This document shows, piece after piece, positions 4,186 to 62,790 of a stretch of 64,000 bases of DNA. Source of the stretch: Spiroplasma litorale (GTDB lineage Bacteria; Bacillota_I; Bacilli_A; Mycoplasmatales; Mycoplasmataceae). A program made the position numbers and the translations under genes. Under the pieces are notes generated by a model. The model saw nothing but the letters and a program-made list of their open reading frames with translations, searched no databases and had not been told where the DNA came from. Positions within the stretch are counted from its first letter, which is position 1. The number at the start of each line of letters is the position of its first letter. The stretch spans positions 1,054,001-1,118,000 of the forward strand of contig NZ_CP012357.1 of the NCBI RefSeq assembly GCF_001267155.1, read 5' to 3'.

Positions 4186-4186
4186 A

Positions 4187-4891
4187 TTATAATTTAATTC
4201 CTTCTAACTTATTTAGGATTATTGAATAAATTGAAGTCACATCATCTAAATCTTCTCTAAAACAATCTTTATCAAGTTTACGATTATTTTCATCTCAAAA
4301 TCTACAAGTATCAGGGCTAATTTCATCACCTAAACATATATTATTTTCAGAATCTAACCCTAGTTCTATTTTAAAATCTACAACTTTAATATTAATTTTT
4401 TTAAATAAGTCAATTAATAAATTATTTATTTTAAGTGTAATGTCTTTTATTTTTTGTAATTCTTCTAATGTAGTTAAACCAAGAACAACACAATGATCAT
4501 CATTAATTAATGGATCTCCAAAGTCATCATTTTTATAGCACAATTCAAAAATTGGTTTATCAAATGTTGTTGCTTCTTTAATTCCTAATCTTTTTGTAAT
4601 ACTTCCTGCTGCTATATTTCTAATAATAATTTCAATATTAAACATTTTTAATTTTTTTACCAAAACATTTTGATCGTCTATAACTTTCAATAAATGTGTA
4701 TTTATATTATTTTTTTCTAAATACTTGAATATAATGTTTGATATTTTTGCGGTTAATACACCTTTTGACTCTATTGTCGCTTTTTTCAATTTATTAAATG
4801 CTGTAATTTCATTTTTAAAAAAAATATTTAATTCATTTTCGTTATCAGTTGCATAACATATTTTAGATTTGCCTTCATATAATTTTGTCAT
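4187..4891 (-). CDS. purC: SAICAR synthetase PurC
   Basis: PurC joins CAIR and aspartate using ATP. The protein is 234 aa, matching the single-domain family. It starts with LYEGKSKICY, the nucleotide-binding first strands, and contains GDEISPDTCRFWDENN, the SAICAR synthetase signature. The Trp in that signature is encoded by TGA at 4295-4297, and translation continues to TAA at 4187. It starts 4 bases after purL and stops one base before purF. Confidence 0.95.
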
Positions 4892-4895
4892 TTTT

Positions 4896-7800
4896 TTACT
4901 CCTCCAAGTTTAAAAAGTATCTTATTGCACTTTTAAATATATTTTGTTCTTTATTTCCATAAATGTTTTTACAAATATCTTGTCCAAATCTTTCGCTGTG
5001 TCCCATTTTACCAAGAATCAAGCCACACTTTGAAACAATTCCTTCTATATTATAGTATGAACCATTTGGATTATTATCTTCATTTAAATATTCAAATACA
5101 ATTTGGTTATTTTTTTTAAGTTCCTTATACATTGATTCATTTATAACAAATCGACCTTCACCATGTGATATAGGTATTACATTTATTTCATTTATTTTTA
5201 AATCTTGTGTTCATGGTGAAGAATTATTTACCGTTCTACAAGAAACATATTTTGAAACATGTCGATTAACATTATTTTTTATTAAAGAAGGATCATTTTC
5301 TTTTAAACCACATGGTTCCCCATAAATTAATAATCCTGATTTTAATAATGCTTGAAATCCATTACAAATTCCTAATATCAATTTTTTTTGTTTTAAATGT
5401 TCAATTAAAGCTTCTTTGACAATTTTACTTTTTAAAACATTTGATATGTACTTTCCACTTCCATCAGGTTCATCACCAAGACTAAAACCTCCTGGAATTA
5501 CAATAATGTGTTGATCTTTTATTTTATTTGCAAGATTTTTTAAAGATAAGTTGAGTTGTTCAACATTCATATTATTAAATACGAAATCTTCATAAGATAC
5601 ACTTTCATTTTTGAAAGACCTTTTAATGTCATATTCACAATTAGTTCCAGGAAAAATTATAGACATAATATTTATTTTACTTATTTTATTAGGATAATAA
5701 ACTTTTTTATTTTCTTTATAGCTTAAATCATTTAATGGTAAAGGATAATTTTGATTATTACTTAAATAGACTTTTTTAATTGGATTTAAATAACAATTCA
5801 ACGCCTTTACTTTATCAATATTAAATCCATTAATAGAATAATTGTTTGAAACAACACCTAAATAAATTAAGTTTTCGTCATTTATTTTTTCATTAGTTTC
5901 TACTATTATTGATCCATACATATAATCAAATATATTTAAATTTGTATTTATATCAAACCCTAAATCATTTCCAAAACTCATTTTTGCTAATGCTTCTGCA
6001 ATACCACCTGATTGAATTGCAAATGATGATAATATTTTATTTTCTAAAATATTTTTTTCCATTGATTTATATATATTTTTTAATTGGTTAAAGTTTGGAT
6101 AGTTATTAATTGCATTATGTTTAAATAAATATATATGATTATTTTTTTCTTTAAAGTCAGTAGAAATAATTTTATCTGATTGTCCAATTGATAATGCAAA
6201 ACTTACTAAAGTTGGTGGTACGCTAATATTTTCATAAGTTCCACTCATACTATCTTTACCACCGATTGCTGGAATATTAAATTCTTTTTGTACAATAAGC
6301 GCTCCTAATAAAGCTACAAAAGGCTTAGCTCATTTTTCTTTATCTTTATTTAATTTTTCAAAGTACTCTTGTAAAGTTAGTTTTAATTTTTTAAAGTTTC
6401 CACCTGATGCAATAACTTTTGTTATGCTTTCTATTATTGCATACATTGAACCTAATAATATATTATTTTCAAATATAAATGGATTATAACCATAACTCAT
6501 TATTGTACATATATTTTTATTATCAGATAGAGGGATTTTTTGACAACTAACTTGTACTTCTGATAATTGCTTTGTACCTCCATATGGGGCCAGAACTGTT
6601 GTACCTCCAATTGAAAAATCAAATTGTTCAATCATCGGTTTTTGTGACATAACGTTTAAACAAGATATATTAACTAAAAAATCGTTTTCTAAATTATTTG
6701 TAAAAGTCATGTCTTCTCTTTGGAAATCTTTAAATAAATTATTTGTAATTAAAACATCATTTTTATTTTTTATACCACCAGTATTTATAAAATCTCTTGG
6801 TAAATTAACAATTGTTTTATTTTTATATTCAACAACAAAACTATTTTCTGATGTTACTTCTCCTAATTTTACTGCAACTAAATTTTCTTTATTTGCTTCT
6901 TCAATAAAAGTATTTAAATTACTTTTATCAATCACAACTACCATTCTTTCTTGAGATTCTGATATTAAAATTTCTTTTCCTGATAATCCTAAATATTTTA
7001 AATGTACATTATTTAAATTAAGTTTTACACCATCAGCTAGTTCACCGGCTCCAACTCCAATACCACCAGCACCTAAGTCATTTGCTTTTTTTATAATTTT
7101 TGAAACCTTTGGATTTGAAAAAAGTCTTTGTAGTTTTCTTTCTTCAACAGGATTTCCTTTTTGTACTTCACTATATGAATTTTTGATTGAATTTTGGTTT
7201 TGGTTTTTTGATGAACCAGTTGCTCCACCAATTCCATCTTTACCAGTTGCTCCACCAACCAGTACAATTAAATCGCCTGGTTTTGGTTCTTCTCTTATTA
7301 AATTATTTATTTTTGTAACACCAACAACAGCACCAATCTCAAGTCTTTTAGCAACATAGTTTTTGTGATAAAACTCTTTAACTAAAGTTGTGGGTATACC
7401 AATTTGATTTCCATAACTTGAAAAACCATCTGCTGCGAGTTTTGAAATTTTTGATTGAGGAAGTTTGTTGCTCATTGAGTTTTGAATATCCTCTAATATA
7501 TTTCCTGCACCCGTAACTCTAATTCCTTGATAAACGTACGCTCTACCTGAAAGTGGATCTCTTATTGCCCCTCCCAGACAAGTAGCGGCACCTCCAAATG
7601 GTTCAATTTCTGTAGGGTGATTGTGCGTTTCGTTTTTAAATTGCACAATACATTTTTTATTATCATCAAGATCAACATAAATAGATGAAGCATTTATTTC
7701 ATCTGATACTTCAATGTCAATTGCATTATTTGTTTTTAACATGTATTTAATATAACTGGTTGCTATGTTCATTAGTGTTATATCTTTTTTTGAAGTTATA

Positions 7801-30102: not shown

Positions 30103-33100
30103 TTAGTTATTTGATATACCAGTTAATGACGCTAATTTTACTCTAAATAATGATTTTAAGATAATAATGTACGCGATTGAGAATATCGCAATTGAAACTC
30201 CCAATATTGAAACAAAGACTCATCATTTAATCATTAGTGGTATTGCAATTTCGATTGACAATAGCATTCTTGGCACAAGACCAAACATTAAGCCTGCTGT
30301 CATTCCAATTGCTAATGCAGCAAATAATAATGTAAGTGGTAAGAAAATTCACATTATTATTGAGTTAATTTCTCCTAGAGAGTAACCTTGAACCCGCATA
30401 TAGTTCATGAAGTTTTTGTATTTTCCAACAAAAAGGTCTGTAATAACATAAATAATAATGATACCAACAATCATTGATATAGTGATAAATACCACTGAAA
30501 TACTTGCTACAGATTTAATCAAATCATTTGTAGCAGCTTTTTTAAGATTAATATAGTCTGTAAATCCAATTGCATCAACTAAATATCTGTCAGCATTTGC
30601 TGTTGCATTATTTCAATTTTTAAATTTAACTATTGATCTATTGTATTTATCAATTGGTTCTATATTTTTACTTAATTTTGCATTACTTCATATATTAATT
30701 TTTGAGTTTTTTGCATCAATTTTATAAGAGTCATATTTTGGATATCCTATTGCTTTATTAAGTTTAACTTGGTCCATATAAATTTTTGGTGAATCATAAA
30801 CTTTTTCAACTTTAACAACTGTTGCATCAATTGATTTAGTTGTTAATTCAGTTTTAATTAACTCATTTTCAAGTGCTATATTTCACCAACTATTAGTACC
30901 TGACATCAAATCAGTTAGACCGATATCTACAGGTTTACCATTTTCATATTTTCTTACATCAAAAGGATTAAAAGTTAGCTCATTACTATTGTTTAATTTA
31001 TTTCCAGAAACATTTAAATACTCTTCATTAACACCTTGAAATACTTTACTATCAAATTTACTTGTATCTTTAATAGTTAATGATAGTTTACCTAAATCAT
31101 TATATTTTTTATATTCACCATCTTCATAATAATATAATTGATCAGATTGGTTACCTTCTTCTGTTGGTGCAAATGCAAAGTGACCTAAATCCATTTCGTT
31201 TACATTTATTTCTTTACCATCATATTTTCAAACAAAGTTATCATTAATGTTAGCGTAGCTATTATTATTTGCTTTATATTCTAATTCTTCTACATCAAAG
31301 AACATTTTAATTACTTTACCAACATCATAACCTTTTAACTTCATTGTTTCATTGATTGAAACATTGATTGAATCATTTTCATTATATAGTAAATCTCTTC
31401 TTTCAAGATTAATGTTTTTGACTGTTGTGTCTTTATTTAAACCATAAATTTTAAAGTCGACTTTTTTATCATCTCTAGCTTTTATGTTTGTATAAATTTC
31501 ATCTTCATCTAAGTTATAAGGGATTAAATTGAAATTAAAAGCAAAATTTTGGAATGATTCTGGTTCGTCTTCTCATTTTTGTTTAATAACTGATGGAATA
31601 ATGTTGTTAGTCATAGATTTTATACAATCTTGATAGTCCATATTAGCATCATCAATTGGTGGTTGATTAAATAAAGTTGGTAGAATTTTACATGAAATTT
31701 GTTTTACTTGTTCAGTTGGTGGGTTATTTTTTGACCCATATACAGATCTAGAAGTATTAACTATTTGTTGCATAATTCCTGGTGAAAATAAATAACCATT
31801 TAACCCTAAGGCTTTATATTTAATAATACTTTCAAACAATCTATGATAATCATCTTTATTATTTGATCAACCTTCTTCATTTAGGGTTGTTAAGTATTTA
31901 TTGTCTGATGTTTTTTTGTATGCTGAAAATAATGAATTGTTGTAGTTAAATTCTTTATCGCTTCCATTAGTTTCTCTTCAATTAAATTTAGTAAATGGAT
32001 TATTATTGACAATATTTGTATAAGAATAATCATTATTATAATTTATCGCATTATAGTACTCCGTTGACATTGTGGACAACGCATTTGGAATGGATGCTGA
32101 AACCGTTAATATTGTTGTACTAACAAAAATTACAAATGAGAATATAAATAAATCTTTAACTGATAATGCAATAAGCGATCCTCTAATTTTGTTTGTAAAT
32201 TTAACAAAAGAAAACCTATTAAAGAATTTTGTAAGGGTAATATTTGGTTTGTTACCTCTACTTGGCTGCATTAAAGTTAATGGGTCTTTTTTTACAGTTT
32301 TATAAGAAATAAACCATATTAAAAGTATTGCTAACATACCAAATATAAATCATTCAACTAATAAAAATTTTCAATCAATTATTGTGACTATTGGTACATT
32401 AAAGTAAATCCCAAAAATGTTCATAAGCGGCCTTTGCATAGCTATGCTTAACCCTCAACCAATTGGAACCATTATAATAATCGGTAGACTTAAATAAAGA
32501 ATGAAGTTCATTATTATTTTTGTTTTTCTAACTCCCAAAGCTTTTAGGTTACCAATTTGTCCTCTTTGAGCGTTTAAGAATTTTTTTGTTAAATTATAAG
32601 TTATAAACAAAATAACTGATAGCAATATTATGCAGAACAAGAATGAAACAAGCAAGAATATAGAAGAAGCTTGACCAAAGAATCCGCTTCTCATATTAAA
32701 TACTTTTGTTTCTTTAAATGATTTAGGGTTTAACCTGGTAAGAACTGAATAATCAAATTTTTCATCAAAAGTTGAAGTTGATAAGTATTCACCAATCTTT
32801 TTAGATACATCTCCAATTTTTAATACGTTATCTGCTGCAAACAATTTGTATAAATTTATTGAGCTTTCCATATCTTTTGGATTACCATTATATTTCATAT
32901 AAGCTTTTGAAACATCTTGGTATTTTGTATTAGATATAAGACTTTCACCTTTATCATTATCATTAAAAAAATCTTTATACATATCAGAGTTAATATAATA
33001 AATTGCATCATTTACTTGATTTGCAAGTATATCTTCATCATAAATTGTTGGATATATATTAAGTGCATCAACACCAACTGCATCTAGTCTTGCTTTTCCA

Positions 33101-34554
33101 TCCTTTGCAACACTTTGACCTGGTAGAATTGCATCTTTTGGAATTAATTGATATTCTTCACCTAATGACAAATTATTATTCTTATAATAACCATAAGTTG
33201 TCATAAAAGTTTTCTGAGTTAAATAATCATCTTTATCTGAATCTTGTTCATATACTGTATACAAATCTTCATTATTGAACTTACCATGTTTTTTTCCTGT
33301 TTCAGGATCAATATAGTTTGAAAAAGCAGATATAAATCGATATTTACCTTTAACATCTCACATAACAACTTCATTAGTATAAGTTATATCAAAATTTGTA
33401 AGATCTGATAATAAATCATAATATGAATTAAAAAAGTCTTTTGCTTTTAAAAACTTTATATCATCAATAAAGTAACTAGATGGACTGTTTTTTGTTGAAA
33501 AAAAGTCTTTTGACTCATAGTTTTTTAATAAAAAGCTTCCATAATCTTTTAGCGTTTTATTATCTCATAATTTACCACTATTCATTAACAAAGAGTCTTC
33601 ATCAGTTATAAAATATCTTATTGTGTCTTCATCAGTTTTTGGATTAGTTTCTACATAAGTATTACCAATTCTTCCATTAAATCCATACTTTTTAAAATCA
33701 TCAATACTTTGGTATTTGATATTTTCTGATGAATTATTTACAAATTGATTTACTTTTTCATTTAAATCTTTATCTTTTATATTATTTATTATTACATTAT
33801 CAATTATAAAAGACTTAAAAGCAGACATAATTGGGCTATTGTTTAAATAGAACATATAGTCAAAAATATCTAATGCCACTTTCTTTTGAGAATTATTTAA
33901 TTCACCTATAAAGTTATTATTTTTTGCATACAATTGTCCAATTAGAGAGTTTTTAAATTGATTTGAATTTTCATTAAATCTAAAGAAACGACCAAATTCT
34001 TTTTTTGCAACAAAATTATTTATTTTTTCTTCATTTGTTAGATTTAATATTGCATTATCTGTTGGAGTATAACTATATTTGCTTGCATTTTTATCTTTTT
34101 TATAACCTTCTGTATCTCCAAAACCAAAATTTAATAAGTAAATCTTGCTACTATTTTTATCTTCATATTTATATAAATATGAATCATAGTTAGAAGTACC
34201 GTCATCTTTTAAGTTTGAAACAAAATTAAAAGGTAGTAATACTGAATCTTTATCATTTCCAATTGTTAATGTAGGAAAACTATATTGTCCATCAGTTACA
34301 TAATCATTGCTAAATGCAAAAAAAGGAGAAATTGTTTGTGTATCATTTGAACTATAAGAACTAGATGTGAATTTATAGCTATAATCATATCCTTTGAAAT
34401 TTCTTGATATTTGACTATTTGTTCTAACTAAGTTTGCAGAAACAATCCCAAAAGCTGATGTAAATAGCACACCAATACTTATTAGTATTAAATAGATTAA
34501 GAATTGAAGCCAATCTTTAAATAACTGTTTAATACCGTTCTTAAATAAAAGCAT
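30103..34554 (-). CDS. Giant FtsX-like ABC transporter permease
   Basis: One continuous code-4 frame of 1483 codons; I checked the joins between standard-code fragments and found only TGA. An N-terminal membrane anchor (residues 10-40) is followed by a ~550-residue extracellular Asn/Ser/Lys-rich domain. Membrane spans lie near 620-760, including the FtsX/MacB signature RGQIGNLKALGVRKTKI. Another span near 800 and a second extracellular domain follow, and a final bundle of spans fills about 1330-1480. This topology (two FtsX units around large ectodomains) fits mollicute efflux-type permeases. No ATPase gene is adjacent. The substrate is unknown. Confidence 0.82.
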
Positions 34555-34719: not shown

Positions 34720-37398
34720 TTAGTTGATAATTTTTCCTTGGGCTAAAACTGAATTTCCTCCACCTTTTAAATTGTGTGATTTTACAGATTTGAATATATC
34801 AATCGCACTGAAATTAGGATTTAATTTTTTAGATACTGAAACATAGTATGTTTGTTTTGCGTTGTTAATAATGTGTATTATCAAATTATCATTTATGTTT
34901 TGTAATTCATCAATTAAAACTTTTGTCTCAAAATCATCTAAATCATTTATTTCAAGTTTAATCTCATTAAATCCATCTTTTGGGTTAGGACTAATAGATT
35001 TATAATTTTTAATTTTATCTTCAACACTAATATCGCGATATTTTTTTTGTAAATTTTTAAATAATTCTTTAATTTCTAACAATATGTCTTTTAAGTCATC
35101 AATATTATCTTTTTTAATTTTTAAAGTTTTAAATTTATCAACTAATTTATAAATTTGATTACAATCTATTTTTTGTTCAAACTCTTTTGCTTTTGCAAAC
35201 ATAGAATCAACTTCATCTTTTATAGAATTATATAGATCACTTAAATAATTATTAATTGTTGAGTGACTTGTTAAAGCGGTGTAACGATAAAGACCACTAC
35301 CTTTTGATTCAACATTTATTATTAATAAATCTTCTAATTCTTTTGTTGAATTTACGTGAGTTCCACCACAAAGTTCACATGAAAAACTACCAAATTTTAT
35401 AACTCTAACAACTTCGTCATATTTTTCAGTAAATAAAGCGAGTGCATTATATTTGTCTAACGCCTCTTTTAAGCTACAATGAATAATTTCTCTTTTTAAA
35501 TCATTTTTTATTTCTCTTTCAACTACTTTATGAATTTTCATAACTTCATCTTTTGAAGGAGGTCTTTTATAAGAAATATCAATTCTAAATCCATTTTCAT
35601 CATTGTAACTACCATTTTGTAACGCTTCTTTTCCTAAAACTTCTTGAATTGCTGCTTGTAAAATGTGTGTCCCAGAGTGATTTTTCATAGTTAAAAATCT
35701 TTTATCTTTATCAATGATAGCTTTAAAAGTTTGGTTTACTTTTACCTTATCTGTAAAAATAATTGTATGAATGTTTTGTTTATTTGGACCTTGCTGAACA
35801 TCAATAACTTTAAAATAGTTATTATTTTCATCAATTATAAAACCATTATCTGCAGCTTGACCACCTTTTTCAGCGTAAAATGGTGTTTTATCAAAGATTA
35901 CATAAACTGTTTGGTTATTTGCTTCTTTAATTTCTTTGTCATCAACAAACATATAGATTATTTTAACTTCGCATTCTTCTTTTTCATAACCCACAAATTC
36001 TGATTCAACCTTTAGTGATGTTAATATTGGTGATTGTTTATTTCATGCTTTATTTGCTTTTCTTGCTTTTCTTGATAAATCTTTAACATTTTCAAGTAGT
36101 TCATTATATTTATCTATATCTACATTTACATTATTTTCATTTGCAATTTCAGTTGTTAATTCAATTGGAAACCCATATGATTCAAATAATAAAAGAGCAT
36201 TTTCAGCACTAACTACTTTATTATCCTTAATAATTGATTCTAATAACTCATAACCTTTATTTAAAGTATTTAAAAATTTTTCTTCCTCATTTAAAATAAC
36301 TTCAGAAACAATAGCTTTTTTTTCAATAATATATGGATAAAAATAACTCATACTATCAATTACTTTATCGACTAATTTATGCAAAAATGATCCTTTTATT
36401 TCTAATTTTCTACCATAAACTGAGCTTCTTCTAATTAATCTTCTAATTATATATCCTCTGTCTTTATTACTTGGGAACACTCCATCACTTATAGCAAAGA
36501 CAACTGCTCTTATATGGTCTGCAATAACTTTAAAAGCAGTATTAATTTTAGTTTGGTTTTCATCAATATTTTGATAATCATTGTATATATATTTAAATTT
36601 ATTATCACTTAGTTTTTCTAATTCTTTTATTGTTGGTAAAAAGATGTCAGTTTCAAAGTTAGTTGGTGTATTTTGAAAAATAGATGCCAATCTCTCTAAA
36701 CCTGCACCTGTATCAATATTTTTTCTTGGTAAATCAGTATAATTGTTATTACCATCATTGTTATATTGTGAAAAAACAATATTTCATATTTCAATGTATC
36801 TATCATTTTCAATATCATCTTTTAATAATTTTGTACCTAAATTGTTTTTATCTCACTCAACTCCACGATCAAAGAAGATTTCAGTATTAGGTCCACATGG
36901 TCCTTGACCAACATCTCAAAAATTTGTATCTCGACTACCTTTAAATATGTGATCTTTTTCTATTTTAATTTCTTTTGTTCATATATCATATGCTTCTATA
37001 TCTTCTTCATAAACAGTTATGTAAAGAAGGTTCTTATCTATTCCAAATCATTTTTCTGAAGTTAGTAGTTCTCAAGCCATTGTAATAGCTTCTTTTTTAA
37101 AATAATCCCCAATTGAAAAATTACCAAGCATTTCAAACATTGTTTGGTGTCTTGCTGTAACACCAACATTTTCAATATCATTTGTTCTAATTGATTTTTG
37201 TGAGTTTGTAAGTCTTGGTGAAGGAGGTGTAAGTCTTCCATCAAAATAAGGTTTTAAAGTTGCCACACCCGAGTTTATTCATAATAAACTAGGGTCATTT
37301 ACAGGAACAAGACTAACTGGTTCTAAAAAATGATGTTCTTTTTTCTTAAAAAAATCTATTCACATATCTCTAATTTGGTTTGTCGATAGTTTCTTCAT
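34720..37398 (-). CDS. alaS: Alanyl-tRNA synthetase
   Basis: Charges tRNA-Ala; 892 aa, full length. Order: class II catalytic core ([37 protein letters not shown]), tRNA-recognition domain, then the editing domain with zinc ligands HSGTH (residues 574-578) and CGGTH (Cys677, His681). The C-terminal DHHA1-like domain ends [15 protein letters not shown]. At least ten Trp are TGA. Ribosome-binding site AAGGAG lies within the end of the upstream small gene, which is 10 bases away. The context suggests co-transcription with pepF. Confidence 0.95.
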
Positions 37399-39601: not shown

Positions 39602-40300
39602 ATGAAAAAGGATGAACTAATAATTGATAAAAATGAAATCAAAAAACACATAAAACTTTTGATTTTAGGTTTATTATTTATTGCAAACTACTACATATTT
39701 ATTAAATTTAATTACAGAACAATTTTAACTGTAATTAATTTAGATTTCACATTACTAATAGGAATATTAGTTTCTTTCATTTACAAACAAAAAAAATCAA
39801 TTAGTAAAAAAGAAACTTTAAAAGGCTTTAATATACTATTTTTGAATCTAATTACAATTGGGTTTATTTTTATAATATTTATTTTACTAATTATTTCAAA
39901 AAATGATGGTTCAGTCATAGTTAATAAAAATATTACATTAATTAATGATTTAAATAGAACAAGAAAGCCAGCTAATTTACAAAGATATGTTAATTCAGTA
40001 TCAATCTTTTTTACAATATTATCTTTAGTATTTTGAATTCTTGCAGCTTCAAATTATTTTAAAATATTAGAAACCATGTACAATAGCATTAAAAAAATAA
40101 TATTTACTTTTGCAAATGCAATAAAAAGAAATATCCAAAAAATTGTTTCTTGATTTAAATACTTATTAAGATTTTTTAAAAACTTTGTAATAAATGATTT
40201 AATTAATTTCTCAAGTTTTTTGTTTAACCGTTTTATATTTTTAATTTTATTTAAATTAAATAAATTAAATAGTTTTTATAGATGGAGCATTATTCCTTAA
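39602..40300 (+). CDS. Array membrane protein 1 (module 1)
   Basis: A 232-aa membrane protein of unknown function. Predicted spans lie near residues 17-36, 44-61, 75-98 and 128-150. A basic, hydrophobic C-terminal half follows (ANAIKRNIQKIVSWF ... FLILFKLNKL). It ends in FYRWSIIP, the tail shared with the other two array membrane proteins. Other Trp codons are TGA, but this tail Trp is TGG. The lipoprotein of the same module starts 47 bases downstream. Similarity to the paralogs is in layout and tail rather than overall sequence. Confidence 0.85.
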
Positions 40301-40328
40301 TATAAATATTTATTTTTAATATTTATAT
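40300..40328 (+). promoter_or_regulatory. Intergenic hairpin before lipoprotein 1
   Basis: Eleven-bp stem ATATAAATATT/AATATTTATAT with a 7-base loop, between the membrane-protein stop and the lipoprotein ribosome-binding site (AGAGAGGA). No U-tract follows, so it is not a simple terminator. The other two modules have unrelated hairpins in the same place. Confidence 0.6.
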
Positions 40329-40346
40329 AAGAGAGGAAAAATAAAA

Positions 40347-42689
40347 ATGAAAAAATTAATTCAATTACTATCAAGTATGAGTCTTTTTGCGACTTCATTA
40401 ACAACTGTAGTTTCATGTGGTGGTGGTGAATCAAATCCAACCAAACCCACAGATCCAACAGATCCAACAGATCCGACTAACCCTACCGACCCAACATTGA
40501 CAGACACACAAAATCAAATGATTAGTGGTGCTGAATTTATGTCTAGATTTATTTTGGCAAGTAGACATGAAAACCTAAACTTTAATCTAAACGAAATTTT
40601 ATCAATGTACTTAACACCTGTGCCAACTGCACTTATGATGCCGGTTGCATATAAATATAAAAATACAGATGTTAATTTTAGTTCAGCTTTACAAAAATAT
40701 AAAACTTTGCTTGCACCATCAATTGAAAAAATAAATAACGATAACTATTCAGGTGTATTTGCAAGTTATGTAATGGGTATGTATGATGATAGTTTTTATA
40801 GAGATTTTATAAATACTGGGCACTTTAATGACTCATTCAATGAACAAGGAGGAGTCGGCTTTAATAAAAAAGATAAAAATAATGAAATGGGAATATTAGC
40901 AGGTCTAGATAAAGATTTAAAATTATCAGGTGATCAAAGTAGAAGAGATTTATCATGAGCAATCCAAGATACTGGTGCATTAACAAATTATCTATTAGAT
41001 ATGGGCTATGATGGAGTTAATCCTGGTGATACAAATGGAACATCAAGTCCTGCAAGCGCAACAAAGCAAGAAAAAGGCGGAACTAATGGTAGTGGTTATT
41101 TGTATTACAATTCAGGTGTTTCAAGAGGACAAGGTAAACAAAACGCATTAAAAATTAATAAAACAGTTCAAGATAAAATTGGTGAAAAAAATAAATATAC
41201 AGCAGCAGATTTTAGCAATGGAAAATACTCTTCATCAATAAATGAAACTACATTTAATGGAATGGGTTCTATGATTGCAAATACTGCTGGTAACTTAAAT
41301 TTAAAAGGATACATAAACAACTTCTCATCTTTAAAAGATAGTCTATCTGAATCTAGTTTTGGAGCAGAGGGACTATTGACAATTGCCAATTATATAACTC
41401 CAATGCTTGCAACTGAAGAAAAAGAATCAGACTTAAAAATTCAAAGTGTTGCATTTAGTTTATTATATAATGTACAATCTGTAATTAATGCAATTCAAAA
41501 AGATTCAAGTACTGGAAATGAACTTAAAGAGTTTTTAAAAACTAACGGATTTGATAGCACAACATTAGGCAAAACATTAGACCAAAAAAAAGCTCTTGGC
41601 GCAGTTGATATATTATTTCCAAAACTTGATAATGTTAAAGCTACTAGATTTTATAAAAAAGATAAAACTGACAAAAATGAACCAATTGAAAATATGCAAA
41701 TAGTATTTAATTTCTTAAAAGAGCTAAAAAAATTCCAAGAAAACCTTGGAACAAAAGAGCTTAAAGAAGAGTTTGCTAATAAATTCTTTTTATCAAAAAG
41801 TGCACCTTTTAAAAAAGATTATTCATTAATCATTAGCGCACCAATGATGGGTGGTCTTGGTGAAGATGGATGAGTTGATTTAGTAAAAGAAGATGGTTCT
41901 GGGGCTGTAAATATATTAAATCTTGTTTCTGAAGCATATAATGGACTATCAAAACAAGATACAATGGAGTTGATACAAGCAACTGAATCAAAATATAAAG
42001 ATAAATCAATTTCTGATTTAAGTAGATCTGAAAAACTTAAACTAATTAAAGATTTAGGGTTTGATAGTTCAACTGGTAAATATACAGAAAACTCATTTTT
42101 TGCAAATTACTTTAAACTATTAACCGATACTAAAACACCTGGTGTTAACGAACTAAGTGATTTATTCAATAGATTAAAAGATAGCACTAATGAAAGCATG
42201 CAACCAACTCACGAAAAAGCACTTCAATATATTTATGATAAAAAATATTGAGATATTTCAAATAAATCATTAAATGTTACTGATCCTTCAGAAATAAACG
42301 GAAAAATGGAATTTACTCTAGAATACAAAGGTAATGGTGATGCTGATTCAAGTGCAGATCAACAAACTACTAAAATTGATGTTCCAGAAAACTTTAACCC
42401 CTACCAAACAAACATAGAACATCAAAAAGATTATGCTCAAAGTGATGCAATAAAAAATAAAATTGATACTTCAAGAATTTCAGGTAAAGTTCTTGGAAAA
42501 GAAAAACTAAAAATGAGTAGTGAAGATTTAATGAAATATGATGGTAAAGGTGAAAACTATAAAGAAGTAAATCATAAATATAAAGTTGTATGACAAAATG
42601 TAAGTAGTGATTCAAATAATCCACACTGAGTTGTTGTAGAAGTTAAATCATACAATAATCAAGGAAAAGAGTTTTATAATATATACTAA
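40347..42689 (+). CDS. Array lipoprotein 1 (tandem paralogous lipoprotein family)
   Basis: A 780-aa surface lipoprotein. The signal peptide ends in a lipobox with Cys at residue 24 (TTVVSCGG). Then comes a Pro-Thr-Asp linker of about 20 residues. The body contains RFILASRHENLNFNLNEILS, SYVMGMYDDSFYRDF, the conserved DMGYDGVNPGDTNGTSSP and GGTNGSGYLYYNSG, and a C-terminal domain ending KEFYNIY. Several TGA-Trp codons join the frame. Strong ribosome-binding site. It may belong to the family annotated as MOLPALP in Spiroplasma-group genomes, recalled from knowledge and not tested. Function unknown. Confidence 0.88.
40437..40497 (+). repeat. Short Pro-Thr-Asp coding repeat in lipoprotein 1
   Basis: Imperfect 9-base units (like ACAGATCCA) encode PTDPTDPTDPTNPTDPT directly after the lipid-anchor region. 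The two paralogs have a short Asn/Pro linker instead. It is likely a flexible stalk; copy number could vary by slippage. Confidence 0.7.
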
Positions 42690-42715
42690 AAGATGTTAAA
42701 ACATCTTTTTTTATT
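42688..42715 (+). terminator. Terminator of module 1
   Basis: Stem AGATGT/ACATCT with loop TAAA, extended by A/T pairs and followed by seven T. It starts at the lipoprotein 1 stop. Confidence 0.85.
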
Positions 42716-42743
42716 TGCTATTTAAACATATTTTGAAATTATA

Positions 42744-42749
42744 TATAAT
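42744..42749 (+). promoter_or_regulatory. -10 box of array membrane protein 2, leaderless
   Basis: TATAAT seven bases before ATG 42757, with TTTAAA 17 bases upstream as a weak -35. No Shine-Dalgarno sequence. The promoter follows the module 1 terminator by about 30 bases, so modules are separate transcription units. Confidence 0.65.
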
Positions 42750-42756
42750 AAATGTA

Positions 42757-43440
42757 ATGAACATAAAAGAAAATATTTTTACAAATAATTTTATAAAAAA
42801 GCACTTGTTTTTTCTTTTTTGTGTTATTTCCATATTTTTGAATATATTTGTATTTAAAATTTGTGATTTTAATTGTATTCTTATTTTAATACACTATGAC
42901 TTAATTATACTGATCGTTATTTTTACAAGATATTTAATTAGATTATATAAATCAAAATCATATTTTGAAAAAATCTCATTCAAGAGAAAACTTACTTTAT
43001 ACTTTTTAATATTTAGCTTATTTATAATGTTTTTTTTATTAATATTTACTTTAAGTATTGATTATTCCTCATTTTATAATGAAACATATAACGTTTGAAG
43101 TAAAATTAAAGAAAATGAAGAAGAATCTGTTTTATTTATCAACTCCATTGTTATTTTTATAATAGAAATTTATTTATTTTCTTTTTTTATTAATTCTTTA
43201 AGTCTTTTATTTTATTTATTTAGTACTGTTATAAAAATAATTTATAACCTATCAGCGAGTTTAAAGACAAATTTTGTTAGTTTATTTACATTATTAAATT
43301 TCTTATTTATTTCAATTGTTAAAAAAATAATAATTGAAGCATTTAACTCATTTAAACACTTTCTTAATATTTTTAAGTTACTAGTATCTTTTAAATTAAA
43401 TAATTTATATTCATTTTATAGATGGAGTATGATTCCTTAA
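42757..43440 (+). CDS. Array membrane protein 2 (module 2)
   Basis: A 227-aa membrane protein, paralog of the module 1 and 3 proteins by position, topology and C-terminal FYRWSMIP. Spans lie near 16-34, 42-60, 78-103 and 127-150. A long hydrophobic-basic C-terminal region follows. ATG 42757 was chosen over the ATG at 42715 because it sits 7 bases after the TATAAT box and aligns with the paralogs' starts. One TGA-Trp occurs mid-gene; the tail Trp is TGG. Function unknown. Confidence 0.83.
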
Positions 43441-43441
43441 C

Positions 43442-43466
43442 ATTGTTTAAAATTTTTAAAAACAAT
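43442..43466 (+). promoter_or_regulatory. Intergenic hairpin before lipoprotein 2
   Basis: Seven-bp stem ATTGTTT/AAACAAT with an A/T-rich 11-base loop, just before the GAAAGGA ribosome-binding site. Same position as in modules 1 and 3, different sequence. Confidence 0.5.
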
Positions 43467-43483
43467 TTGAAAGGAAAAAACTA

Positions 43484-45790
43484 ATGAAAAAATTAACACA
43501 AATTTTAGCAGTTGTGAGTCTTTTAAGTACTTCAATTACAACTGTAGTATCATGTGGGGGAAGTAATAAAGATAAAAACTCACCAAGCAACCCTACTGGC
43601 AACTTGACTGAAACACAAAAACAAATGGTTGAAGGAGCAGAAACTTTATCAAGATTTATATTATCAAGTAGACATGAAAATTTAAATTATAACCTTAATG
43701 AGATTTTATCTATGTATTTAACTCCAATACCAACAATGCTAATGATGCCTGTTTCTTACAAATTTGAAGATATGGACATTAATTTCGGAACAAAAATTAG
43801 TAAGTATAAAAAATTATTAGCACCGTCAATTGAAAAAATTAATAATGATAACTATTCTGCTGTATTTGCAAGTTATGTAATGGGTATGTATGATGATAGT
43901 TTTTATAGAGACTTTATTGAAAACGGTCATTTTAAGGACTCATTCAATGAAAAAGGTGGTGTAGGATTTAATAAAAAAGATAAAAATAATGAAATGGGAA
44001 TTCTAGCAGGATTAGATAAAAACTTAAAACTTTCTAATGACGAAAATAGAAGAAACCTGTCATGAGCAATCCAAGATACTGGTGCACTATCAAACTATTT
44101 ATTAGATATGGGATATGATGGGGTTAATCCTGGTGATACAAATGGAACATCAAGTCCGATGAGCCCAACAAGTCAAGAAAAAGGTGGCACTAATGGAAGT
44201 GGGTACTTGTATTACAATTCAGGTATTTCAACTGGTAAAGGTAATAGGAACTCATTGAATATAACAAAAACAGTTAAAGATAAAATTGGTGAAAAAAATC
44301 AATATGAACCAGCAAAAATTGATAAAAATCAATACTCATCAAAAATTAATGATATATCTTTTAATAGAACTGGTTCTATGATTGCAAATACTGCTGGTAG
44401 AATGAATTTAAATGGATATATAAATAACTTTGCATCATTAAAAGATAGTATATCTGAATCAAGTTTTGGGGCTGAAGCGCTGCTTTCTGTTGTAAACTAC
44501 ATAACTCCTATGCTTGCAAGTTCTGAAAAAATAACTGACTTAAAAATGCAAATAGTCGCATTAAGTTTAATTTATAATATGCAATCTGTAATTAATCAAA
44601 TACAAAGCAATGATAATGCAATGAATAATTTTTTAAAAACAAATGGCTTTAATAAGGATGTATTAAGTAAATTAATTAATGTAAGAAAACCAATTGATTC
44701 ATTAGAAGCTGTGAAAGACATAAAACCTGAACAAGTAAAAATAACAAGGTTGTATCAAAAAAATAGCGATGATAAAAATGATCCGATTGATAATTTAAAA
44801 ATTGTTTCTAGTTTTATAAAAGAATTAAAAATGTTTTACAATAACTTAAAAACAGATGATCTTAAAGAGGAATTTGCAAGTAAATTATTTATTAGTAAAG
44901 ATTCACCATTCAAAAAAAACTATGATTTAATCATTAACCCTCCATTAATGGGAGGCCTTGGAGAATCTGGATGATTAGATCTTGTTGGGGACAAAGGTTC
45001 TAATGCAATGAACTTGTTAAATATGCTTGATTATACATATGAAAGTTTTTCAAAAAATGAAACTAAAGAGTTTGTTCAAGAAGTTATAAATAATTATTAT
45101 GGTCGTTCAATTACAGATTTAAGTAGAACTGAAAAACAAAATTTAATAAAAGAACTTGGTTTTGATACATCTAGTAATAAATATGTCAAAGATTCATTTT
45201 TTGCAAATTATTACAATGTACTAACAAATGAAGAGTTTGAAGGTTCAAATGAATTAAGTAATTTATTTAAAAGATTAAGTGATAACACAAGTAAAGATAT
45301 GATGGAAGTTCATCAAAGTGCACTTCAATATATCTATGATGATAATTTTTGGTCAATGAGCAGTCCTAAAATAAATGTAACAGATCCTTCTGAAGTAAAT
45401 GGGGAAATGGAATTTACTCTTGAATACAAAGGTAATGGTGATGAAGAATCAAATGCAGATCAACAAACTACTAAAATTGATGTTCCAGAAAACTTTAACC
45501 CCTATCAAACAAACATAGAACATCAAAAAGAATTTGCACAAAGTGATGCACTTAAAGATAAAATTGATACTTCAAGAATTTCAGGTAAAGTTCTTGGAAA
45601 AGAAAAACTAAATATGAGTAGTGAAGATTTAATGAAATATGATGGTAAAGGTCAATTATATAAAAAAGTTAATCATAAATATAAAATTATATGAAGAAAT
45701 ATAAGTAGTGACATTAACAATCCTCATTGAGTTGTTGTTGATATAAAATCGTTTAATAGTGATGGTAAAGAATTTTATAATATATACTAA
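43484..45790 (+). CDS. Array lipoprotein 2 (tandem paralogous lipoprotein family)
   Basis: A 768-aa lipoprotein with lipobox Cys (TTVVSCGG) and a short Asn/Pro linker. Its first ~125 coding bases are almost identical to lipoprotein 3. Its C-terminal region (about 45430-45660) contains blocks nearly identical in DNA to lipoprotein 1. The conserved central segment AIQDTGALSNYLLDMGYDGV and the final KEFYNIY are present. One Trp near 45350 is TGG, the rest TGA. Surface protein of unknown role, paired with the membrane protein upstream. Confidence 0.88.
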
Positions 45791-45815
45791 AAGGTTTAAT
45801 AAACCTTTTTTTATT
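45789..45815 (+). terminator. Terminator of module 2
   Basis: Stem AAGGTTT/AAACCTT with loop AAT followed by seven T, at the lipoprotein 2 stop. Confidence 0.85.
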
Positions 45816-45843
45816 TGGAATATAAGAATAAAAAATATATAAT
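45815..45843 (+). promoter_or_regulatory. Promoter of array membrane protein 3, leaderless
   Basis: TTGGAA-N17-TATAAT, then seven bases to ATG 45851. This is the best-formed of the three array promoters and the clearest case for a leaderless mRNA. It overlaps the end of the module 2 terminator. Confidence 0.72.
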
Positions 45844-45850
45844 TTAATTA

Positions 45851-46543
45851 ATGAAAAAAACAGATTTTAATGTTATAAAAAAGCAATTGAAAAAGCATTT
45901 TATAATCCCGCTTTGGATATTTTTTACAATAATAAATTTTTATATATTTAATTTATGTAAGTTTAATTGCGTTCTTATTTTAATCAACATTGATCTAATT
46001 TTATTATTAGTTATATTGTTTAAATATATTTTTAAAAGTGAGAATTTTAAAATAAATAAACATAAAAATTATTATAAAAATTTAATATTTTTTAATATCC
46101 TAATATTTATAGTTCTATTTACAATAATTTTTTTGTTATTTTTAACAAGTATTAATTACTTTATTATTTATAATGAAACTAATTTAATATTAAGTAATTT
46201 AAAAGAAAAAAATCATTCACCAATTAAATTTATAAACTCTGTAACAATTTTTTTAATAACAATAATATTAATTTGTTTCATTTTATTATTGATTAATTCT
46301 ATTAGCTTATTAAATTATTTTTATAAAAATATGATAAAAGTAATTCATCATATAATAAATACTTTAAAAAATAATATAGTAAAACTTTTATCATGATTCA
46401 AATTTATTTTTATCTCAATCAAAACAAAATACATTAAGTTTACAAAAAAAATATTAAATGAAATTTTTTTAATCTTTGAGTTGCTTATATCTCATAAAAT
46501 AAATAGTTTATATACTTTTTATCGATGGAGTATGATTCCTTAA
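45851..46543 (+). CDS. Array membrane protein 3 (module 3)
   Basis: A 230-aa membrane protein. Spans lie near 18-35, 42-60, 76-100 and 126-150, then a basic-hydrophobic C-terminal region ending FYRWSMIP. A TGA-Trp occurs near 46395; the tail Trp is TGG. The lipoprotein starts 50 bases downstream. It shares LCKFNCVLILINIDLILL with KICDFNCILILIHYDLIIL of module 2, which shows common descent. Function unknown. Confidence 0.84.
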
Positions 46544-46545
46544 TT

Positions 46546-46576
46546 AAGTTTTATTAATCTAAGAAAAATAAAACTT
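46546..46576 (+). promoter_or_regulatory. Intergenic hairpin before lipoprotein 3
   Basis: Ten-bp perfect stem AAGTTTTATT/AATAAAACTT with an 11-base loop. It ends right before the GAAAGGA ribosome-binding site of lipoprotein 3. Confidence 0.6.
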
Positions 46577-46592
46577 GAAAGGAAAAATAAAT

Positions 46593-48914
46593 ATGAAAAA
46601 ATTAACACAAATTTTAGCAGTTGTGAGTCTTTTAAGTACTTCAATTACAACTGTAGTATCATGTGGAGGAAGCAATAAAGATAAAAACTCACCAAACAAC
46701 CCTACTGGTAACTTAACTGAAACACAAAAACAAATGCTTGAAGGTGCAGAAATAATGTCTAGATTTATATTATCAAGTAGACACGAAAATCTAAATTATA
46801 ATTTAAATGAAATTCTTTCAATGTACTTGGCCCCTATTCCAACAGCGATGATGATGCCTGTTAATTATAAATACGATAACTCAAATATTAATTTTGGTTC
46901 AATGTTAGAGAAGTATAAAAAACTACTAGCACCATCAATTGATAAGATTAATAATGATAATTACTCTGGTATATTTGCAAGTTATGTAATGGGAATGTAC
47001 GATGATAGTTTTTATAGAGACTTTATAAAAACTGGTCATTTTAATGATTCTTTTAGTCCTAACGGTGGTGTTGGGTTTAATAAAACTGATAATGATAATG
47101 AAATGGGAATATTAGCTGGTTTAGATAAAGAACTTAAACTTTCTAATGATCAAAGTAGAAGAGATTTATCCTGAGCAATTCAAGATACTGGTGCACTATC
47201 GAACTATTTATTAGATATGGGATATGATGGAGTCAATCCTGGAGATACAAATGGAACATCAAGCCCAAAATCTGCTTCAACTCAAAAACAAGGCGGTACT
47301 AATGGAAGCGGATACTTGTATTATAATTCTGGAATATCAAGTGGTAAAGGACGTTATAATGCACTTAAAATTAAAAAAAATGTTCAAGATAAGCTTTCAG
47401 AAAAAAATAAATACACAGCGGCAAATCTAAAAGAAAATGATTACTCATCAAAAATTAATGATATCGCTTTTAACAAAACAGGTTCTATGATTGCAAATAC
47501 TGCTGGAAGTTTAAATTTAAAAGGTTATATTAATAACTTTACTGCATTAAAAAATAATATTTCAGAATCTGATTTTGGATCTGAAGCATTACTTACAATT
47601 GCAAATTATTTAACTCCAATGCTTGCAACTAAAGAAAAATCATCTGATTTAAGAATACAAAGTGTTGCATTTAGCTTATTATATAATGTACAAGCAGTTA
47701 TAAATGATATACAAAGTGAAGAAGAAGAATTAGGTCTTAAAGAGTTTTTAACAACTAATGGATTTAATCAAGATGTATTGAGTAGTATTCTTGACGAAAA
47801 AGAGGCATTTAGTACTGGCAGTTTACTTTTACCATCTGTTGATAATGTAAAAACAACAAGATTTTATAAAAAAGATAAAGATGATAAAAATGATCCAATT
47901 GACAATTTAAAAATTGTAACAAGTTTTTTAAATGAGTTGCAAAAATTTCATAAAAATTTGAAAACCGATGAACTTAAAAAAGAGTTTGCAAACAAATTCT
48001 TTATTTCAGAAGATGCACCATTTAAAGATGAGTACTCACTTATTATTAGCGCTTCTGCATTTGGTATGGATTTTGGTGGTCTTGGAGAAGATGGGTGAAT
48101 TGATTTAGTTAAAGACGATGCTTCTGGAGCTATGAATTTATTAAATTTAATATCATCAGCTTATGATAATTTATCAAAAGAAGAAACTAAAAATTTAATA
48201 ACTGAAGTTGATAGTAAATACGAAGGGAAGTCAATTTCTGATTTAAGTAGAACTGAAAAACAGAATTTAATAAAAGATCTAGGTTATGATAAATCTAATA
48301 GTAAGTTTTTAGAAAATTCATTTTTTGAAAATTATTTTAAATTATTAACAGATGAATCAGTTCCTGGGGTAAGCGAGTTAAATAATTTATTTATTAGGTT
48401 AGCTGATAGTACTAATGATAGTATGAAAAATGTTCATGAAGAAGCACTTCAATATATTTATGATAATAAATATTGAAATATGACAGATACAAATATAAAT
48501 GTTACAGATCCATCAGAGATAAATAGTAAAATGGAATTTACTATTGAATACAAAGGTAATGGTGATGCTGATTCAAACGCTGATCAACAAACTACTAAAA
48601 TAAATGTTCCAGAAAATTTTAATCCATATCAAACCAAAATTGAACATCAAAAAGAATATGCACAAAGTGATGCAATTAAAGATAAAATTGATGAATCAAA
48701 AATTTCAGGTAAAGTTTTAGGTAAAGATATTTTAAAAATGGAATCAAATGATTTAATGAAATATGATGGTAAAGGTGAAAATTATAAATCTGTAAACCAT
48801 AAATATAAAGTTGTTTGACAAAACATAAGTAGCGATATTAACAATCCTCATTGAGTTATTGTTGATATAAAATCATTTAACAGTGATGGAAAAGAATTTT
48901 ATAATATATATTAA
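46593..48914 (+). CDS. Array lipoprotein 3 (tandem paralogous lipoprotein family)
   Basis: A 773-aa lipoprotein starting MKKLTQILAVVSLLSTS with Cys in TTVVSCGG. The upstream in-frame ATG at 46575 lies inside the hairpin and before the ribosome-binding site, so 46593 is the start. The domain layout matches lipoproteins 1 and 2: RFILSSRHENLNYNLNEILS, the GVNPGDTNGTSSP segment, GGTNGSGYLYYNSG and a KEFYNIY end. The C-terminal region is more diverged at DNA level than between 1 and 2. Unknown function. Confidence 0.88.
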
Positions 48915-48935
48915 CAAATAAAACTAACATTATAT

Positions 48936-48968
48936 AAAATGCACATAATTATTTAGTGCATTTTTTAT
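48936..48968 (+). terminator. Terminator of module 3
   Basis: AAAATGCAC pairs with GTGCATTTT around an 11-base loop, followed by a T-run. It lies 22 bases after the lipoprotein 3 stop. Confidence 0.8.
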
Positions 48969-49046
48969 TTAATATAAATTATAATATAAAAAAAATATTT
49001 ATATATTATTGTATTTAGTGTAATATTTACTTAATAAGGTTATATT

Positions 49047-49646
49047 ATGAAAAAAATAAATAATGACACAAAATTTTTATATTTAATTACAATAGTTTTA
49101 TTAATTATTATTTCAATAAACCAATTTGTTGGAAACATATTATTTTTATTTATAATTTTTTCTTTTATAGTTTTTTATTTATATAAAATTTTAAAAAATA
49201 TGAAAAATGATAAGTTTAGAAAAATTTTAATACAAAATTTCAAAAAATTATTTAATTTTATTTTACCCATAATTTTTTTATTGCAAGCATATAATTCATA
49301 CTTTATAAATCATTATCAAAAATTATTTTTGGAGTTATTTTCATATCATATATCATTAATACTAATTAGCTTTATAAGTTTGTATTTATTATTGAGTTTT
49401 TTTAAATTTACTATTAAAGTAGTTTACAAAGTTTTAAAAAGAATATATCTTTTAAATATTTATTTAGTTTGTAAATATTTATTTAAAATAAAATATAAAT
49501 TTATTAAAATAAGTTACTATTGAGTTATTATAAATAGTTTTTGCTCTTATTATTTAATAAATATTTTTAGCAAATACAATTTAAAAATATTTAGGATTAT
49601 TAAAACATTTATCTGGAAAGATCAACAACATTTACCTCTTATTTAA
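49047..49646 (+). CDS. Array-end membrane protein 4, no partner lipoprotein
   Basis: A 199-aa membrane protein with about four spans (near 10-27, 28-46, 68-84, 100-120) and a basic C-terminal region. Size, topology and position echo the three array membrane proteins, but it ends FIWKDQQHLPLI instead of the FYRWSMIP tail and is not followed by a lipoprotein. A weak AAGG precedes ATG, and TAATAT lies 20 bases upstream, so this one may have a leader. One Trp is TGA. Function unknown. Confidence 0.75.
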
Positions 49647-49666
49647 ATTTATTTAAAGGAGGAAAC

Positions 49667-50095
49667 ATGAATTTAGAAATATTAAATAAAAAAATTAAGT
49701 TTTTTATTTTTAGTGTGTATATAGTTATTTTTTTTGATATAGCAATATTTTTGTCAATTTTTATAAGAAATATAATTTATTTTTCAATGGGTATGTTACT
49801 GGCTCCACTTTTACAATTAATTCCACTAATAATAATGTTGATAATTGTAATTATGGGCTTAAAATTCATTACACATTTTTGAAAGTTATATAAGAAAAGC
49901 ACATCTGATTATAAATATTTATATGCATTACACAATCTATCAATAAGTAATAAAAAATTTTATAAAATTGAAATTGTAATAATATTTATTAGCTGTTCAT
50001 TGCTTGCTCTAATTGGTGGTATCGGAATAGCTCCTTTGGTTTTTATTATAAAAGGAAATAACTCATATAGATATTATTCTAAAAATATTGATTAA
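49667..50095 (+). CDS. Small multi-span membrane protein
   Basis: A 142-aa hydrophobic protein with about four spans (12-35, 38-70 as two, and 104-126). It has a strong AAAGGAGGA ribosome-binding site 20 bases after the previous gene, so the two are probably co-transcribed. It contains GGIGIAPLVFIIKGNNSYRYY near the end. One TGA-Trp near residue 72. No family recognised. Confidence 0.75.
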
Positions 50096-61578: not shown

Positions 61579-62151
61579 ATGAAAAAAATTATAACTATGT
61601 TGAGCAGCATTATTTTTTTTACATCTATTTTTAATTTGATATTAAATACAATTTCATGTAGCAATGATAATGTAAAAGAATTACTTTTTAGCGAAAATAA
61701 AACTGATGAAAATTTAATTAATTTATTAAAATCAGATGAAATTTCAATTGAAACTGAATATGATAACAAACCATTACAAATTAATGCTGAAAATAATACT
61801 TTAGCAATTGATTATGGTGATACAAAAAATTTACATGGCTTTAGTGAAAATATTTCATCATTCGAAGGTAGCCAAGTAATTTATGGATTATATGAAGACA
61901 ATAAATATTTAGGTTTTAAAAAAAGTGTTTGATCAATTTTCTACCAACTTTTTGGTCTTGAATTTTATTTAAAAGAAAACATGGATTCTTTGGAAAGTCA
62001 AATATATTTTATGAGCGTTAAAGGTTATATGAACAATAGACTATTTGATATATTTATTTATAAATTAAATTATAAAGTTAAAATTATAAATGATGAAATA
62101 GAGTACTTTAATTTAAATAAAGTATATAAAAAAAGTATATCTATATATTAA
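61579..62151 (+). CDS. Small lipoprotein A
   Basis: A 190-aa lipoprotein. The signal peptide ends in the lipobox LNTISC with Cys27. The body starts with acidic NLINLLKSDEISIETEYDNK and KPLQINAENNTLAIDYGDT, which match small lipoprotein B in order and spacing. The C-terminal half is hydrophobic-aromatic. TGA-Trp near 61930. No terminator separates it from gene B, which has its own promoter. Function unknown. Confidence 0.82.
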
Positions 62152-62203
62152 AAATTCTAAATGGTATTTTTTCTATTTTAATTTTATTCCATAAAAAAAA
62201 TGA

Positions 62204-62209
62204 TATAAT
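62204..62209 (+). promoter_or_regulatory. Extended -10 promoter of small lipoprotein B
   Basis: TGATATAAT (TGn-TATAAT), 32 bases before ATG 62242, followed by AGGAGGA. Confidence 0.65.
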
Positions 62210-62241
62210 TACCATAATAGCAAAAGCTATAGGAGGAATAT

Positions 62242-62790
62242 ATGAAAAAATTATTAACTTTATTTGGAGCAATTGGTCTTATGTCATCAAGTGCAATCTT
62301 ATCAGCAAATGTAGTTTCATGTGGAGATACAACTACTGAAGATAACTCAAAACCCTTAACTTATAAAGAAGGTAAAAAAGATTCTGACATTGTTGAATTA
62401 TTAAAAAAAGAAGATACTAAAATTGGCACTGAAGGAAAACCTTTACAAACAGAAGCTTCAAAGTTAGCTTCAGATTATAAAGATACAACTAGCGAAGAAT
62501 ATGGTGGCATTCAAATTGAAGGTACAGTAATATCATCATTTTTAGGTACAGGCGGAAAGGCTTTCATTGATGAAGTAAATGAAATCTATAACGAAACTGG
62601 AGACCTTAAAATCGGTCAAGAAGGTACAAAATTGGTTGCATACCTAATGACAATAAAAGGAACTAAAGGTGAAAGTAAATTTAATTTAGCAGTTATAAAA
62701 GTTGAAATGGAAGCAAATGCAGAAACTGGAAAAATGTCAACAAAATTTTCAAAAGACTTTAAAATAGAAGTAACAATACCTGCAGAATAA
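62242..62790 (+). CDS. Small lipoprotein B
   Basis: A 182-aa lipoprotein with signal peptide and lipobox Cys (NVVSCGD). The mature part is charged: DIVELLKKEDTKIGTEGKPL then KLASDYKDT, clearly related to small lipoprotein A. The remainder is beta-rich (QIEGTVISSFLG; KLVAYLMTIKGTKGESKFNL). No Trp. Very strong ribosome-binding site, so probably well expressed. Unknown function. Confidence 0.85.
   Translation: MKKLLTLFGAIGLMSSSAILSANVVSCGDTTTEDNSKPLTYKEGKKDSDIVELLKKEDTKIGTEGKPLQTEASKLASDYKDTTSEEYGGIQIEGTVISSFLGTGGKAFIDEVNEIYNETGDLKIGQEGTKLVAYLMTIKGTKGESKFNLAVIKVEMEANAETGKMSTKFSKDFKIEVTIPAE

Follow-up and report, generated by a model that had tools for sequence, protein, structure and literature searches.

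Three tandem gene pairs and their neighborhood

The window, a 64,000-nucleotide stretch at C1:1054001-1118000 of the complete 1,225,519-base genome of Spiroplasma litorale (G000), was translated with table 4. As the preliminary description had reported, it holds three tandem modules on the forward strand, in each of which a gene for a small membrane protein of 229 to 232 aa (4TM) is followed by one for a lipoprotein of 768 to 780 aa (LP). The first module consists of 4TM1 (39602..40300; 232 aa), which matches the A3 profile at 1.5e-46 (the profile includes the 4TM1 row), and LP1 (40347..42689; 780 aa), with an RHENLN motif and EFYNIY at its C-terminus. 4TM2 (42751..43440; 229 aa counted from the ATG) and LP2 (43484..45790; 768 aa) make up the second, and 4TM3 (45851..46543; 230 aa) and LP3 (46593..48914; 773 aa counted from the ATG) the third. 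The 4TM-LP spacers measure 46, 43, and 49 nt in modules 1, 2, and 3, matching the spacing noted earlier. The small protein had been described as four-span; it stands as a membrane protein, but its predicted spans vary from 4 to 6 by copy and threshold.

A terminator-like A/T-rich hairpin with a T-run lies on the forward strand behind every LP stop, at 42687..42720 after LP1 (−7.2 kcal/mol), 45788..45822 after LP2 (−6.2 kcal/mol), and 48931..48970 after LP3 (−10.6 kcal/mol), and each of the three 4TM ATGs has a TATAAT 2 to 9 nt on its 5′ side. These elements make it plausible that every module has its own promoter and terminator, as had been proposed. The generic promoter scan was at background in this AT-rich window (87 found versus 93 expected), so the signals rest on position and not on the scan; the generic terminator scan did not pick up these GC-poor LP hairpins. 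Within the window modules, 4TM and LP are likely transcribed together. A conserved hairpin in the 4TM-LP spacer was considered and set aside, as it is strong only in W3 and L048 and is not general.

Pairwise identities in the window are 67 to 72% for the LPs and 27 to 39% for the 4TMs. Over the first 40 codons (window 43484-43603 and 46593-46712), identity between LP2 and LP3 reaches 97%, compared with 57 to 88% elsewhere, and because the first value lies so far above the remainder, a recent gene conversion is likely. LP1 has a PTDPTDPTNPTDPT repeat spacer 3′ of the lipobox (window 40440-40500) that LP2 and LP3 lack. Behind the third module, window 49047-50095 encodes two more small membrane proteins of a family that we did not recognize; reading 49047-49646 as a fourth, degenerate 4TM was unsupported, its relation to 4TM being undetectable. 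Farther on, at window 61579-62790, lie tandem small lipoproteins of 190 and 182 aa that share similar sequence motifs.

On the reverse strand, 5 kb from the LP array and between the rpsJ/rplC ribosomal operon and alaS (34720..37398, reverse strand), the window encodes a 1483-aa FtsX-type ABC permease (30103..34554; two PF02687 matches, E 2.6e-13), here called PERM, the proposed partner of LP. Its relatives are 1420 to 1500 aa long (∼1450). Transmembrane segments are predicted at positions 20, 632, 680, and 731 and again at 802, 1354, 1399, and 1424/1448, a topology in which one segment, a large outer domain, and three further segments occur twice, as in two MacB-like units in one chain. A type VII (MacB/FtsX-type) ABC system was taken to comprise an FtsX-type transmembrane domain, a MacB/LolD/FtsE-type ATPase, a dedicated extracytoplasmic partner, and ATP-driven movement without translocation of that partner; judged by its sequence, PERM has the FtsX-family transmembrane domain. 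LP and the PERM outer domains were compared as possible sequence relatives and are not (hhalign probability 0.5%). The gene 67 nt behind PERM in TIUS-1 (L133 13761-15353) encodes a protein of 530 aa that starts like an ABC ATPase and has six transmembrane segments.

The window LPs have the lipobox VVSC, and the lipobox cysteine, C24, is invariant in 34/34 LP sequences. With this conserved signal peptide, LP is predicted to be a bacterial lipoprotein; against the LP_plasma signal profile, LP1 reached E 2.3e-4 and 21.6 bits, under the cut-off of 24. Conservation is ∼0.56 to 0.8 over residues 61 to 270 and 0.53 to 0.73 beyond 601, compared with ∼0.36 to 0.49 over residues 331 to 600, a profile that fits ends that may serve in docking and a variable middle. 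The statement that LP and 4TM have no known function was borne out: neither body had any Pfam or NCBIfam match, and sequence searches for solved relatives of LP or PERM returned none. AlphaFold2 with seven sequences gave a middling model of LP (pLDDT 61.5, pTM 0.60) and a better one for the C-terminal 183 aa alone (pLDDT 82.4, pTM 0.68), and Foldseek found no match with E < 0.001 for either. The NTF2-like/CaMKII hub fold scored at best Z 5.9 with the full, middling model and 3.4 to 3.7 with the better C-terminal model, and we did not accept these middling values as an NTF2-like fold for the C-terminal region. A search of viral contigs for LP found none. LPs of the Citri type are strongly diverged and were recognized through their ends, length, and position; they keep the motif RHEN(L/M)N and, in most cases, a C-terminal Y-D/S-G-x-G, and their middle is unrecognizable.

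LP, 4TM, and PERM across related genomes

The preliminary description had held that 4TM and LP are strictly paired and had proposed a side-by-side search in related genomes as the check. We ran this search on 20 genomes of the genus, which contain 35 LP copies including one broken copy in G010. A 4TM gene lies directly in front of LP in 23/35 copies and is missing from the other 12, among them all 5 of G010, the tandem LPs of G019, and both at the second locus of G000. The window genome itself has six LPs; outside the window are a copy at 431 kb with a 4TM and the two at 808 to 814 kb without one. In G010, three consecutive LPs are separated by gaps of 58 to 106 nt, and G019 has one LP 88 nt behind another; such back-to-back LPs leave no space for a 4TM. 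LP without 4TM also occurs in TIUS-1, G051, and Williamsoniiplasma. LPs are thus commonly found without the membrane partner, the very outcome that the description had named as refuting its claim. The triple-LP row of G010 (L050 4030-14156) is flanked by two mreB-like genes, recognized by eye.

The converse also occurs. In four LP-free genomes (G007, G011, G012, and G013), a profile search placed 4TM directly before a ∼1650-aa FtsX-type permease, and G008 and G015 have an extra 4TM copy in the same position. Nearly all strong 4TM matches adjoin either an FtsX-type permease or LP. Since LP neighbors had supplied the profile, independent evidence comes from the four LP-free genomes. Strict pairing therefore does not hold, and the sequence record indicates that 4TM is an optional accessory. 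Of the suggestion that 4TM and LP work together, what remains is a recurrence of the pair far above chance, but the obligate partner of LP appears to be the FtsX-type permease. In several genomes, this ∼1650-aa protein, a second FtsX-type permease, is encoded between rpsJ/rplC and alaS together with a 4TM of its own but no lipoprotein (L175 1-18720 in G008; also L164-L167 and L174). The 6-7-TM proteins upstream in Citri-type loci were considered as 4TM homologues, which went undetected (hhalign probability 0.2%), so their slot is analogous at best.

LP follows PERM closely. Among the 20 genus genomes, 13 have LP and an intact PERM, 6 lack both, and G018 lacks LP and has a broken PERM (Fisher value 1.3e-5, computed by hand and ignoring kinship). 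Of 60 genomes of the family, 34 have PERM, including the broken one of G018, and the remaining 33 of these have LP; in family genomes without PERM, LP matches were of signal-peptide length only. In G018, PERM fragments with many stops lie beside the ribosomal operon (L154, G018:C2:990000-1003000, ∼3360-7290), and the genome is without LP; G018 is a natural joint loss of PERM and LP. The absences may reflect just a few loss events.

Gene order points the same way. At 13 loci of the genus, LP and PERM share a strand and a distance of 3 to 160 nt separates the LP end from PERM. Many relatives have the order 4TM, LP, PERM, often beside alaS (which adjoins in L055, L060, L061, and L175), an arrangement that is ancestral-looking, and in Citri-type genomes, TIUS-1, Williamsoniiplasma, G051, and G023 the gene immediately upstream of PERM is LP. 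The window LPs are outside any operon with PERM; G005 and G019 have PERM at a window-like place and their LPs elsewhere. Where there are several LPs per PERM, the LP:PERM copy ratios are 6:2, 4:1, and 5:1.

Distance matrices of LP and PERM are strongly correlated (Mantel r = 0.942, p = 2e-4). G000 and G019 each have two PERM types, and swapping their two LP types within each genome lowered r to 0.815. PERMs without an adjacent LP form one 100/100 clade (G000, G005, G010, and G019), and the 17 detached LPs of the same four genomes, including the window's three, do so as well. G000 and G019 each have a second PERM-LP pair, with no 4TM in front, that takes a matching place in both trees; the two genes thus moved, or were inherited, as a unit.

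A putative permease-lipoprotein system and its alternatives

A candidate for the ATPase is encoded away from PERM, at L211 6127-7050 (G000:C1:16126-17049). This orphan MacB/LolD/DevA-type protein has an N-terminal extension of ∼70 aa, is closest to DevA, MacB, LolD, and FtsE, below their equivalog cut-offs, and scores 212.6 bits on the MacB/LolD/DevA-like profile, against 146.5 for the next ABC ATPase of the window genome. It is single-copy in 20/20 genus genomes, in the neighborhood tilS-ftsH-hslO-dusB (gene names assigned by eye). Because it is not adjacent to PERM and also occurs where LP and PERM are missing (genomes in which other FtsX-type permeases exist), we assign it by elimination; it is probably the ATPase of PERM.

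From gene content, order, co-occurrence, co-divergence, and the domain type of PERM, which are direct observations, we infer contact between LP and PERM, the identity of the ATPase and of what is moved, and the use of LPs in place of one another. We think it somewhat more probable than its competitors combined that the LPs are dedicated extracytoplasmic partners of PERM and form with it a type VII (mechanotransmission) ABC system. PERM would amount to two 4-TM FtsX units fused as a dimer, with an outer domain of ∼500 to 600 aa on each. ATP hydrolysis inside the cell by the MacB/LolD-type ATPase would move these domains; the membrane-tethered LP would dock on them with its conserved regions at the N- and C-termini, leaving the variable middle to meet the substrate or target. 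4TM would be a small accessory that FtsX-type permeases can do without. The LP gene of the window lineage, alone or along with 4TM, would have left the permease operon and multiplied, so that one permease could be served by several alternative LPs. Tentatively, and at less than even confidence, we propose that wall-less spiroplasmas have a type VII ABC subsystem not described before, in which one permease motor and one shared ATPase may drive amplified, interchangeable lipoprotein heads with conserved docking ends and variable middles.

The main rival to the partner reading is that the LPs are cargo, which a LolCDE-like machine extracts, releases, sheds, or relocates, the arrays being a cargo family. 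PERM and LolC/E belong to one Pfam family, LolD is among the closest families of the orphan ATPase, and there are several LPs per PERM (6:2, 4:1, and 5:1). Yet many lipoproteins share this type of signal peptide and PERM is tracked by the LP family only, the specific co-divergence and 1:1 operons better suit a dedicated partner than general cargo, and there is no second membrane for sorting; we regard cargo as unlikely. Less likely still is a two-protein module in which 4TM anchors or exports LP. The direct placement of 4TM before LP in 23/35 genus copies, despite a 4TM identity of ∼20 to 25%, and the likely shared transcription in the window speak for it. However, LP is commonly found without 4TM, 4TM occurs without LP before a different FtsX-type permease, 4TM diverges much faster (dN among window copies 0.48 to 0.71 versus 0.20 to 0.23 for LP), and LP needs no anchor beyond its own lipid.

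It is about equally improbable that the LPs are variable surface antigens or adhesins, with a merely historical PERM neighborhood and co-inheritance and no contact. Tandem arrays with lineage-specific expansion, the conversion-like LP2/LP3 patch (97% over the first 40 codons versus 57 to 88% elsewhere), and the repeat spacer PTDPTDPT of LP1 would suit such a role. The strongly conserved N-terminal region and C-terminal end, dN/dS of ∼0.2 to 0.3 among the window LPs, loss of LP together with PERM, and the mirror trees argue against it.

Relation to known systems

Several giant FtsX-type permeases with no assigned purpose are retained in mollicutes, minimal cells included. A dedicated, recognizable lipoprotein partner would be a concrete handle on one of these and would unite entries annotated as hypothetical lipoprotein and hypothetical permease in a single complex open to testing. 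The tandem-pair reading is corrected as well, as the decisive partner of LP is encoded outside 39602-48914. Outer partners are already known for type VII ABC systems; a search of a partial library found no description of the LP family, the LP-4TM pair, or the LP-permease link in the papers retrieved.

Two reports concern mollicute proteins directly. Like LP, the "7th protein" of the Spiroplasma mreB locus is a Spiroplasma-specific lipoprotein of unassigned function; it is reported downstream of mreB3 and missing from the Apis clade, and on that reported absence, by description only, we set it aside as an LP family member (PMC10074174). The FtsX-like permeases MMSYN1_0034, 0399, 0531, and 0639 of JCVI-syn3.0 resemble PERM, by description, as mollicute proteins with only generic earlier annotation, and the passages of that report that were consulted describe no link to an LP-like lipoprotein (PMC6629657).

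Among characterized machines, FtsEX-EnvC, LolCDE-LolA, MacAB-TolC, and YbbAP-TesA are examples, in the consulted part of one account, of the outer partners that are common among type VII systems (PMC12646458). FtsEX-EnvC has an FtsX-type permease that acts through an outer partner, as PERM may, but mollicutes are without peptidoglycan and PERM has ∼1450 aa and two FtsX domains. LolCDE-LolA would share an FtsX-type permease, a LolD-like ATPase, and the involvement of a lipoprotein, whereas here one specific lipoprotein family tracks PERM and there is neither an outer membrane nor LolA. MacAB-TolC would be alike as a type VII ABC system with an outer-face adaptor, but we recognized no MacA or TolC homologue and found no sequence relation to LP, and the cells have no outer membrane. 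YbbAP-TesA of E. coli has a hydrolase as its partner, whereas LP is a lipoprotein of ∼770 aa that has neither a known fold nor a known catalytic motif. PERM combines two FtsX domains in one chain, with outer domains of ∼500 to 600 aa each, the candidate ATPase is encoded outside the LP/PERM locus, and Spiroplasma cells have a single membrane. What the two systems would have in common, as far as the consulted part of the account goes, is an FtsX-type permease, a MacB-type ATPase, and a dedicated extracytoplasmic partner encoded nearby (PMC12646458).
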